A stretch of 64,000 bases of DNA from Tetmemena sp. SeJ-2015. Taxonomy: Eukaryota > Ciliophora > Spirotrichea > Sporadotrichida > Oxytrichidae. The notes beneath the pieces are model-generated. The model ran no database searches. It had not been told where the DNA came from and saw nothing but the letters and a program-made list of their open reading frames with translations. The stretch lies in assembly GCA_027382625.1 (NCBI GenBank), contig JAJKFJ010022837.1:1-64000 (forward strand), written 5' to 3'. The position numbers and the translations under genes are program-made. The stretch's first letter is position 1, and the number at the start of each line of letters is the position of its first letter. Below are positions 1-64,000 of the stretch, one piece after another.

Positions 1-432
1 TCACTGAACTATCCTGCTTCATAGCTCTAGCTTTATTGACTTCACCTTAGTGATTGAATTCTTTGACAATTCTCAGTCTGGACCAATCCTTAGGAAGTTT
101 GGAAGTGTCAAGTATAGACTTTTAACTCTGATTGACTTTAGGGACTCTCACTTCTCCAATGTATATGGTATCATTCCCTACAAGATCGCCATACTCCTCA
201 TCGAAATGAGTGCCCAGCAAGAAAGATTGTATATAGAACTGAGATGAGAACTCTGGCTCCTCCCGCCTTTGAGGCAACCATTGGATTGTGTGAGTGGTGC
301 ACTTCAGAGAATTCTGGATGAAGATCTCATAAGTCATCTTAGCATAATTCAATATTGATTTCATTATAAAATAGCATTTTCCATAAGATCTTCTTGCTCT
401 AAAGGTTCCTCATCCTCCTATTAGGAGTTCAT
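1..432 (-). CDS. RBBP4/MSI1-like histone-binding WD40 protein, N-terminal part
   Basis: N-terminal part of an RBBP4/RBBP7/MSI1-type histone chaperone; the rest lies beyond base 1. After removal of the IES at 340-371 the protein starts MNSQQEDEEPLEQEDL, followed by a region matching the family helix before the first WD repeat, ending in IQWLPQ (family: AQWLPD), then LLGTHFDEE (family: LGTHTSDEQ) and FNHQGEVNKARAM (family: INHEGEVNRARYM). These are hallmark segments of the histone H4-binding WD40 family found in CAF-1, HDAC and PRC2 complexes. The start is the first ATG of the joined frame; in-frame TAA/TAG are Gln. It is divergent from the DHX8 gene at 688, leaving a 255-bp spacer. Confidence 0.8.
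340..371. other. IES, pointer TAGCAT
   Basis: A 32-bp AT-rich insert with TAGCAT repeated at 372-377. Removing one copy joins ...MENA to KMTYEIF in one frame; unexcised DNA stops at a TGA. Confidence 0.75.
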
Positions 433-687
433 ATCCCCCCCTTTTCCAAACCCACTCATTAGATTTTGCAAGCCTGATTTTCCCAAAGCTCCCTTTGAAT
501 AGATCCTCCAGGGGTTTGTTAATTAGTTTGCGGGATTTTTTCAAATTATAATACCCCGGGGAAAATTTTTCTCCATGAAGGAGCAATTCTTAAAAACCCG
601 GGAAAGGATCTTAACCCCTTGGGTATCCAATAAAAATTTTTTATAATAATTTGAGAATAAAATTTCCCAACAGAAAGGGAAAGAAAG
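433..687. other. Divergent intergenic spacer
   Basis: Spacer between the start codons of the RBBP4-like and DHX8-like genes, AT-rich with a short C run near 434. It should hold both promoters, but I recognise no specific motif. Confidence 0.5.
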
Positions 688-3600
688 ATGAGCGAAAGTT
701 TGAAAAAGCTGAAAGAGATCCCAGTAGTGAACAAAATCATGCAGGAGCTAGACAGAGCAATAGAAGTGAAAGACAAGGTACGAATTTAAATTCGATTTGA
801 ATAGAAGTTTCTTAACTCTTTAGGTTTTAGCTGAATTCGTGCTCGACATTGCCAAGCAATCAATTATTGATCCTAAGTTTTAATGAAATAAGTTTTGAGT
901 TGAATGAATGTCAGAGCGTGAGGGAGTTTGATAGCAAGCTCTAAGAAAATGGGGCAGAGTTTGCTATTGAACTGGTGAATACCCTCTACGCAACAATCAC
1001 TAGAATGCTTCCCGAGGCATTTCGAGTGACCCCCAATAATCAAAGCTCTTCCACAGGCTCTGCAGCCTTTGAATTGGATAACTTCTCCAAAAACAAGCAT
1101 CTTTACATAAAAAATTGAAGATATACTCATTACATTGTAATTATTTTTTTATCTTTTGTCGGAAGAGCCGGCAAATGCTCTATACGGTGGCAGTGTGAGA
1201 AAGACTGACAGAAAGGCCGATGATGATTTCGAAGATGATGAAGAGGGCGATGATGTGAACAGAGAGAAGCTTTCAAGGTAATTTCCTTCTCTCGCCATTC
1301 CAAACAAGCCTCACCCCAAAAACCAAGAAGAGATAGACATCTTGGGTGATCTTGATGATCTTGAAGAGACAAAGAACAAGCAGGAATTGGACACTGACCT
1401 CAACTAATCTCACAAGAGAAGGGACTCAAGAGAGCGAGATAGGAGAAAAAGAGATGGAGATAGAAGGAGAGACTCTCGATCTAGATCCAATTAGAGAAAC
1501 TCAAATCAAGAAAGAGATTCAAGATAGAGGAGGAGAGACTCCAGATCTAGATCGGTCGACTCTAGGGATAGGAAAAGAAATAATAGACGTTCAAGGTCCA
1601 GAAGCTATGATAGAAACAGAGATAGAAGGTACAAGAGAGACTCTCGATCCCGATCTCCAAGAGAAAGAAGAGACTACAGAGATTAGAGGAACTCTGATAG
1701 AGGAAGCCGCAGGAGGGAAGATTCTCGATTCCCTTTTCAAATTGGCGCCATTTACAAAGGAATTATAAAGAAAGCTCAGGACTTTGGCTTCTTCGTGCTG
1801 ATATAAGATCCTTAAACTGGATATAAGAAGGAAGGTCTAGTTATGTGGGTCAAATTAGAAATGGAGTTAGATTAGAAAAAGCTTAAGATTCTGGCTATGA
1901 ACCTGAGGATGAAGTCTATGTTAAGCTTACTCAAATCAGAGATCTTTAAACAAACTTTTTTCAAAAGAAAAAAATGAATTTAAAGGAAATGCTTTAAATA
2001 GAAGAATTTAATATAGAAGCCATATTAAATTGCAAATCTTTTTATTTCATTTTATTCTTATCTAAATTTAATTTTTTTTTATTTGAGATGATGGTAAATT
2101 GAGTTTCACTATGAAAGAGTGCGATCAATACTCAGGGTTAGATTTGAATGCCGAAAGGACTAAAATGCTCTAATTAGAAGCACAACAAAAAGCTCAAGGA
2201 GGAAAGGATATTTAAGAGCCTGATGAATTCATAATCACTGGAGAAGTTAATCATAGAGGCGAGGTTGTGAGAGTGAAGAAGCCCAGAGAAAACAAACCAG
2301 CTCAGATTACAACTACAAAGCAACACGATCCTACTAATCTGTTTGGCTCCATTACAGGTATCTTACTAGACACTTCTGAATCAACAAAAGGAAGGAGCGG
2401 CAAAAACAGAATTGCTTCTCCAGATCTTTGGGAGTACTCAAGACTACAAGGTGCAGGTGTTCTAAATATCGTAGAGGATGAAAATATTTAGCGCCTGCAA
2501 TAAAATATGGAGACTGAACTAGATGAAGAAGTGGTAGATTTGGAACTTAATGACAAAGAGGCACCCTTCCTCAAAGGTCAAACAACTAAGGCCGGATTAT
2601 GCCTTTCTCCAATTAAGATCAGCAAGAACCCTGATGGCTCTCTTCAAAGAGCTGCTATGAAGAGTAGTTAACAAGCTAAAGATAGAAAAGACATTAGAGA
2701 CTAGCAATAGAGAGCTATCACAGAGGCTCAATTTAAACTTAAACTTAATATTATTATATTTATTAGGCTTTACCAAAAGATCTTAACAAAATTAGAGATG
2801 ATCCCACTGCTAATCCTGCAGTAAGAAACCTAGCAGCTACTCTAAGAAACATCTCTGCAAATTAACTTGATTTACCCGACTGGAAAAAAGAGACTATGGC
2901 TAAGCTACAATAGTAAGCCTCAACTAGAGGTACTAACCCTAATGTTTCTTCCTAATCAAGAACTTAGATGACGATAAGGGAATAGAGAGAATCACTTCCC
3001 ATTTTTTAGCTGAGAACAGAGCTTGTCAGAGCTATCTTAGACAACAGATTATTGGTCGTGATTGGTGAAACAGGTTCAGGGAAGACTACTCAAATGCCTC
3101 AGTATTTAGTTGAAATGGGATTATGCTCAAAGGGAAAGAAAGTGGGATGTACTTAACCAAGAAGAGTTGCAGCTATGTCTGTAGCCAAGCGTGTTGCCGA
3201 AGAAATGAATGTAAGGCTAGGCCAAGAGGTCGGTTACTCTATTAGATTCGAAGATTATACCTGCCCGAAGACAATCGTGAAATATATGACTGATGGTATG
3301 CTTTTAAGAGAGTGTCTTATTGATCCTAAGCTCAGTTCTTATTCTGTAATCATGCTTGATGAGGCTCACGAAAGAACTATCAACACTGATGTCTTGTTCG
3401 GATTATTGAAACAGGCTATGGATTAGAGAAATGATTTGAAACTGATTGTGACTTCTGCCACTCTTGATGCAGAGAAGTTTAGCGCTTATTTTGGAGACTG
3501 TCCAATATTTAGGATTAAATTTTAAGAATGAATGATTAATTTAATGGATTCCTGGAAGGATTTTCCCAGTCGAGATCTTGTTTAGCAAGGACCCAGAAGC

Positions 3601-63139: not shown

Positions 63140-63336
63140 TATAAAATCTTATTTTAAGTCTATATTCAAAAATTTATTATTTTTATAAGTGGCTTAGAAG
63201 AAAATAAGAACTTAACTATTTGATATTAAATTTGATATAATCGGGTGCTAAATCCAAGGTATTTCCATTTACAGGTATTTGAGATAGTAGTGGTAGTTAT
63301 TTCCAAATAAAATTTTGGCTTGCTAAATAATTTAAC

Positions 63337-64000
63337 TCAAGTCTTCTAGAGACTTTCATCTTTTATTTTATAGCTACATTTTATAATTCGGATGGTGCTT
63401 GATGATTCATAGCACCTTCTAAAGGAAATTCTTAACTGATTCTTAATAAATAATAAGGATGGAAAGATATAACTTTTAGTTAATTCTGGAGTGAGCCTGA
63501 TGACTATTCTTTTAGCTAGGAGAATCAAGAGAAGAATGATGATAGTCCAAAATGTTTGCATAAGTTCTGGCTTATGCAGTCTCCAAAAAGTGGAGGCATA
63601 TTTCAAGAGGCATCTGAGGGTTAATTCGAACTAAGGGTATTGACTTGGCGGCTTTTGAGATTCCTTATCCTCATCATGAGGATCTCTGTGGGTATAGAAA
63701 GATATCATGTTGCTCTATGAGTCAGACGAGGATTAATTTAAATTCTGTTGTGACTACTCTAAGGCTCTGTTGTAAAATGTAGATTGGCAGCGAAGTGGAT
63801 CAGAATTATCAATTGTGATTCTTGAAGGAGAAGATGGGTGTTAGAGGCTCACATTTTAGTGTCTCAAAGCTAAAATTGCACCGTTTCTCTCAGCCGATTG
63901 GTGGTGACTTCCCCCACTAGAGTTTGTAGTTGAGTTCAAGCTGATAAGACGATGACCCTGCTTCAATGATCCATTTTTATGAGTATTGTTGCCTGATTAA
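63337..64000 (-). CDS. Serine-rich protein with transmembrane segment, N-terminus outside window
   Basis: Enters from the window end in an open frame: GSLKQGHRLISLNSTTNSSG, a Ser/Asn/Gln-rich stretch, SFYTHRDPHDEDKESQKPPS, then LLKYASTFWRLHKPELMQ and a hydrophobic helix FWTIIILLLILLA followed by basic residues, ending KDESLQKT at TGA 63337-63339. It looks like a cytoplasmic disordered region before a membrane anchor, perhaps the start of a multi-pass protein if an IES near 63340 hides the rest. Family not recognised. Confidence 0.55.

Follow-up and report, generated by a model that had tools for sequence, protein, structure and literature searches.

Short AT-rich inserts between variable direct repeats in a ciliate contig, most probably germline DNA of a hypotrich-grade spirotrich

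The window analysed here is the whole stretch of 64,000 nucleotides from contig JAJKFJ010022837.1 (contig C3473 of its own assembly: 146.2 Mb, 5213 contigs). We conclude with high confidence that it is micronuclear (germline) DNA of a hypotrich-grade spirotrich ciliate. Short internal eliminated sequences (IESs), rich in AT and flanked by variable direct repeats (pointers), break up its genes. Fourteen inserts were established in five genes, with weaker placement for three of them (1099 and 1939 in the DHX8 helicase gene; 26531 in a kinase gene). Orthologs in other species, or in some cases a paralog, lack the inserts, and excision that leaves one repeat copy restores a conserved protein. These IESs are probably conventional and non-scrambled, a kind of system that is already well known.

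Inserts placed by protein homology

To avoid circularity, inserts were placed by protein homology alone and the repeat was ignored when the excision was chosen: homologous proteins fixed how much was removed between two anchors, all placements were scored against them, and the junction was then checked for a repeat. Ten homologs, taken from the best 120 of 238 protein matches (no named ciliate was found among these 120), were used for the DHX8 junctions, with 9 or 10 of them gapless. One homolog was used for the junction at 52574, and two for the flippase and the other transporter sites.

A perfect repeat of 5-7 bp was found at all eight junctions with gapless homologs (DHX8, four; amino-acid transporter, three; flippase, one), the individual lengths being 5, 5, 6, 5, 5, 7, 5 and 5 bp. 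At random junctions of the window (400,000 draws), the probability of a run was 0.009 for at least 5 bp, 0.026 for at least 4 bp and 0.074 for at least 3 bp. Seven placements were equally good at the 2724 junction, and the repeat was present in six of them and absent from one. Two GT-AG introns placed by the same method had junction repeats of 4 and 0 bp. The three DHX8 examples of the first-pass annotation (3512-3545, 3720-3761 and 4779-4812) proved exact, as the homologs alone picked the same excisions (10, 9 and 10 gapless out of 10), and its general claim that AT-rich inserts lie at perfect, site-specific repeats and that their excision restores protein held at the eight insert junctions with gapless homologs. 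The DHX8 features are as follows:

688..5084, + strand: DHX8/PRP22-type DEAH RNA helicase gene, 1328 residues after removal of the inserts and one intron (one residue undefined at a slip near 1843)
778..823, + strand: GT-AG spliceosomal intron, 46 bp (GTACG..TTTAG), gapless across in 10 of 10 homologs
881..896, + strand: discontinuity, about 11 residues without counterpart in homologs; a 16-bp excision is unproven
1099..1150, + strand: putative IES, 52 bp, pointer ATCTTT, in a non-conserved region; placed by frame and repeat
1939..2084, + strand: putative IES, 146 bp, pointer GAGAT, in the S1 domain; placed by frame and repeat with imperfect homology, the product being one residue longer than the homologs
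2724..2764, + strand: IES, 41 bp, pointer AGGCT; homology only, 10 homologs
3512..3545, + strand: IES, 34 bp, pointer GGATT; homology only, 10 homologs
3720..3761, + strand: IES, 42 bp, pointer ATGAAA; homology only, 9 homologs
4779..4812, + strand: IES, 34 bp, pointer ACAAT; homology only, 10 homologs

The amino-acid transporter is the clearest case, and two of its insert lengths were fixed beforehand: gaps of 9 and 14 residues in the two full-length orthologs correspond to inserts of 27 and 42 bp, and a pointer lies at each of these gaps. After three excisions, the product was 73% identical over 460 residues to an Oxytricha-like protein and 66% identical over 450 residues to a Stylonychia protein. 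Two of the three inserts are in frame and free of stops, and are therefore invisible to a search that relies on frame repair.

51488..52983, - strand: amino-acid transporter gene (Aa_trans), 462 residues after three excisions
51722..51763, - strand: IES, 42 bp, pointer TTACT; keeps the frame and has no stop, both orthologs being 14 residues shorter here
52286..52312, - strand: IES, 27 bp, pointer AAGTTAT; keeps the frame and has no stop, both orthologs being 9 residues shorter here
52574..52611, - strand: IES, 38 bp, pointer GATAA, frame-breaking; homology-only placement

Further inserts were found in the flippase, kinase and ubiquitin-like genes. The ubiquitin-like gene lies near an intact polyubiquitin gene, which served as an internal reference, and its pieces are 69-82% identical to the ubiquitin repeats. 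Its unexcised frame stops early; after excision the frame ends in ..LVLKMRG followed by TGA, without a second C-terminal glycine. In the flippase gene, the region 31104-31600 (+ strand) holds about 490 bp where the homologs need about 26 residues, and is probably an intron plus one or more inserts.

30560..35683, + strand: P4-ATPase (flippase) gene region, collinear with homologs
30838..30922, + strand: GT-AG intron, 85 bp (GTAAGT..TTTAG); homology-only placement, no repeat
34844..34871, + strand: IES, 28 bp, pointer CTCTT; homology only, against Blepharisma and Halteria proteins
25840..27052, - strand: protein kinase gene region, two inserts
26531..26581, - strand: putative IES, 51 bp, pointer GAGTA, in a poorly conserved loop
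26644..26692, - strand: IES, 49 bp, pointer ATT (3 bp); no gap at this point between the product and the solved kinases shown
10045..10734, - strand: polyubiquitin gene, three repeats, uninterrupted
12108..12420, - strand: ubiquitin-like gene, 75 residues, with an open frame only once both inserts are removed
12187..12228, - strand: IES, 42 bp, pointer AGTT, absent from the polyubiquitin paralog
12318..12360, - strand: IES, 43 bp, pointer ATCT, absent from the polyubiquitin paralog

Taken as a set, the 14 inserts are 27-146 bp long (median 42 bp, from a small, homology-biased sample) and are bounded by 14 different repeats of 3-7 bp (median 5 bp), one copy of which is left in the product on excision. 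AT content was 0.84 within the inserts (G+C about 16%) and 0.61 in their flanks; for comparison, the available text of PMC7586852 gives an IES G+C of 11-19% in four hypotrichs. An ANT motif is present in 7 of the 14 repeats. GT-AG ends, the mark of a spliceosomal intron, were found in none of the inserts in any register.

Frame repair, introns and single-base slips

Genes were also sought de novo by frame repair, with true repeats competing against complement-decoy repeats. When length priors were applied, 50 true and 29 decoy repeats were chosen (42 and 20, respectively, at 60 bp or less); in the last round without length priors, the choice was 32 true and 34 decoy. Frame-repair excisions were rejected as proof of IESs, true and decoy repeats being about equal without the priors. 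The search recovered 5 of the 14 listed inserts and chose at least three repeats that homology or strand contradicted: the long repeat CTCTATGA (26442-26583) and the repeat TTTCTCT (34869-34905) were both rejected by homology, so a long repeat is no proof, and the choice at 51717-51773 was contradicted by homology or strand. With the same model, seven stretches of telomere-capped contigs gave 39 true and 17 decoy repeats, and one of the true calls overlaps a plain GT-AG intron. The excess of true repeats is thus seen in capped contigs too, and does not separate germline from soma.

The longest repeat chosen by this search was 14 bp, at the following site:

15872..15971, + strand: candidate IES, 100 bp, 14-bp repeat TTTTGGCTTAAAAA; frame-repair search, excision gives a continuous frame, no homolog used

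The first-pass annotation had read about 40 IESs in at least a dozen genes directly from frame repair. Because frame repair is this noisy, that tally is unproven: no count of 40 could be verified, and inserts were established in five genes. Some tens of IESs across the 64 kb are plausible. Its use of frame breaks as such to mark IESs was overstated, since the frame is also broken by GT-AG introns and, near 1843, 29840 and 29937, by slips of a single base. Two further introns were located by translation:

53596..53629, - strand: GT-AG intron, 34 bp, CRAL_TRIO gene
54973..55073, + strand: GT-AG intron, 101 bp, DHHC gene (read by eye)

The single-base slips look like assembly indels. The one-base slip near 1843 (+ strand) falls in the conserved S1 domain of DHX8 and is not an IES. 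A Cys-rich, secreted-looking repeat protein at 29596-30404 (+ strand) can be read through only if the frame is shifted by one base at two places, near 29840 and 29937; both shifts are probably assembly indels. The existence of such slips is what could be said for regarding the inserts as assembly or sequencing artefacts, or the loci as decayed pseudogenes; this is hardly credible for AT-rich inserts of 27-146 bp that sit at exact repeats in five genes, and for products as conserved as the 462-residue transporter (73% and 66%).

Identity of the ciliate and telomere-capped contigs

Gln was the commonest homolog residue at 17 TAA and 15 TAG aligned positions of DHX8, with TGA as stop, in agreement with the code first proposed for this DNA; nine TAA/TAG codons are present in the transporter. 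This code excludes that of Euplotes. Taken alone, it is compatible with Paramecium and Tetrahymena too. Ten of the 14 repeats contain no TA, which makes them a poor fit to TA-bounded IESs of Paramecium or Euplotes. The IESs of Paramecium and Euplotes vannus are likewise short and intragenic, and are removed there at the DNA level, as is inferred here; their pointers carry a TA motif, according to the available text of PMC10901763.

The closest transporter proteins were eukprot:403352633 (69%; GI 403352633, which we take to be Oxytricha trifallax), a Stylonychia lemnae protein (62%) and a fragment from Halteria grandinella (only 54% identical). No second near-identical place was found in the assembly for the transporter or for window positions 3000-5000. 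The non-scrambled IESs of O. trifallax, S. lemnae and Tetmemena sp. resemble those described here: short, AT-rich, intragenic and flanked by variable direct-repeat pointers. TAA and TAG encode Gln in these species as they do here, and DDE-type transposases, as in them, are abundant in this assembly: 150 of 921 candidate DDE_3 matches were scored, many with in-frame TAA/TAG. Some of these matches need not be ciliate, such as L030, the domains of which are presumably IS630-like. The present assembly measures 146 Mb, against 496 Mb for Oxytricha and 237 Mb for Tetmemena in the available part of PMC9797194.

It is highly improbable that the germline DNA belongs to a different group of ciliates, be it Paramecium/Tetrahymena-like, Euplotes or an oligotrich (for example Strombidium). 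The glutamine code is shared with Paramecium and Tetrahymena, and diverse pointers occur in Strombidium too: in the accessible text of PMC10901763, both Halteria grandinella and Strombidium cf. sulcatum have, as here, diverse AT-rich pointers, mostly under 10 bp and about half with ANT. Against another group stand the lack of TA in most repeats, the exclusion of the Euplotes code, the nearest transporter proteins (Oxytricha-like, Stylonychia, Halteria) and the 20-base C4A4 ends described below. Median IES length is 104 bp in H. grandinella and 180 bp in S. cf. sulcatum in that same part of PMC10901763, against 42 bp in the small, homology-biased sample (n = 14) from the window.

Somatic telomeres are 20 bases long. 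A 24-base C4A4 pattern was found in three contigs of the assembly only, always internally. The 20-base pattern C4A4C4A4C4 gave 67 matches and starts 11 contigs: nine at base 1 (bases 1-20 of C298, C586, C672, C739, C770, C1030, C1301, C4311 and C4966) and two at base 9 (bases 9-28 of C2611 and C5026). The latter two share an identical 8 bases ahead of the telomere, perhaps adaptor. An interstitial C4A4 repeat array spans about 350 bp at C2828:3805-4156 (L012-L020). The 20-mer was absent from the far end of all 11 capped contigs (lengths 10.8-21.2 kb). For four of the five capped contigs searched, a longer contig aligns from base 19-21, directly past the telomere; no longer counterpart was found for C4966. 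C298 begins with C4A4C4A4C4 and then follows C1815, which runs on upstream of the cap site without a telomere, and this cap site is a telomere addition site of hypotrich type.

Mature somatic chromosomes would be expected to lack inserts that are present in the longer contigs. Across the four pairs of capped and longer contigs (about 6 kb), the net differences between aligned blocks were +19, +10, +1, +12 and -22 bp. Only one difference is large: C1815 holds, at 29965-36471, a 6.5-kb insert that begins with a C4A4 tract and is missing from C298, which leaves TTA as an overlap of 3 bases. The two contigs are 95-96% identical, and the insert may be either an element that is eliminated or an allelic insertion. 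It resembles a telomere-bearing element, and no Pfam match was found in its first and last 1.5 kb.

Capped contig C586 carries, at 1563-1587, a 25-bp insert that is 95% AT, lacks GT-AG ends and has the pointer AGTTA. It interrupts a sphingomyelinase-like gene within the conserved GNHD motif, and the excised protein aligns gaplessly there to solved structures. C298 has a similar 42-bp insert with the repeat CATGA, without a homolog match to prove it. The C586 insert means that the capped contigs are not clean somatic copies. The simplest account, which we infer, is that contigs such as C586 are soma-germline assembly hybrids: somatic telomere reads and germline reads would be assembled together because they have the first segment in common. 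Capped contigs with inserts may also stem from incomplete processing.

The C586 insert and the true introns of overlapping size in the same genes speak for the idea that the inserts persist in somatic DNA and are spliced out of RNA as introns with unusual ends. We consider this very unlikely, given that GT-AG ends are wanting in all 14 inserts, that plain GT-AG introns account for the breaks in capped contigs C1301 and C770, and that the missing far-end 20-mers are as expected from somatic ends joined to germline reads.

Several points weigh against reading the window as germline DNA with hypotrich-type IESs. The orthologs compared come from other species; one kinase insert has a repeat of a mere 3 bp (chance 0.07); and DHX8 881-896 and flippase 31104-31600 and 33900-34080 gave no clean solution. 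In the available text of PMC7586852, TA is present in 44-58% of the pointers of five hypotrichs, against 4 of 14 here. Deletion of short inserts was not seen in the capped contigs (four pairs, about 6 kb), and one of them, C586, carries such an insert. Germline DNA of a hypotrich-type spirotrich, as the first-pass annotation had it, is nonetheless supported as the best reading by the transporter relatives, the varied repeats and the somatic-type ends. On established ciliate biology, the developing macronucleus would delete each insert as DNA after sex and keep one pointer copy per deletion, and the macronuclear chromosomes would be cut short and capped; GT-AG splicing at the RNA level would act separately, on the ordinary introns of the same genes.

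Gene order and scrambling

The first-pass annotation had called all readable genes collinear. This holds for the five window genes that were tested (DHX8, transporter, flippase, kinase and ubiquitin-like gene), each collinear with its product. A search of the same assembly for the actin family yielded 65 matches, with 20 loci in two or more pieces. All 20 were collinear on one strand by reading; some of these loci are alleles of one another, and in several one segment could not be located. The best actin match (C2293:49904-51013) consists of a single open frame, in contrast to the scrambled actin I of O. trifallax and S. lemnae (available text of PMC2394655). The actin genes at C2293:49904-51013 and C3715:32078-33187 have no insert in the coding region, and the two contigs look allelic. 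There is no start codon directly before the conserved actin N-terminus, and a 5' insert or intron is therefore likely.

Eight adjacent pairs of pieces at other actin-family loci were inspected for junction repeats. Clear repeats were present in two (L043, AATC, 4 bp; L046, TGAAG, 5 bp), L045 has a weak repeat (TGAT), and L046 q41-63 is GT-AG intron-like. L046 q204-225 and L044, in poorly conserved stretches, had no repeat, and no fit was obtained for L043 q309-331 and L039.

The four pairs of capped and longer contigs are also collinear. Together with the one-piece actin, the multi-piece actin-family loci and the tested window genes, they tentatively suggest the germline of a hypotrich in an intermediate state, with Oxytricha-type pointer-flanked IESs but with genes that are scrambled rarely or not at all; we hold this to be doubtful as yet, a lead and not a result.

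For the mapping of germline inserts, the window indicates that these can be located to the base from germline sequence and foreign orthologs, without the somatic genome of the same organism; frame repair misses in-frame, stop-free inserts (in the transporter, two of three) and lets false ones through. A low-scrambling state, if true, would mean that deletion of DNA at variable pointers and scrambling had separate origins, and comparison of this assembly with those of Oxytricha and Tetmemena would then help in asking how gene scrambling began.

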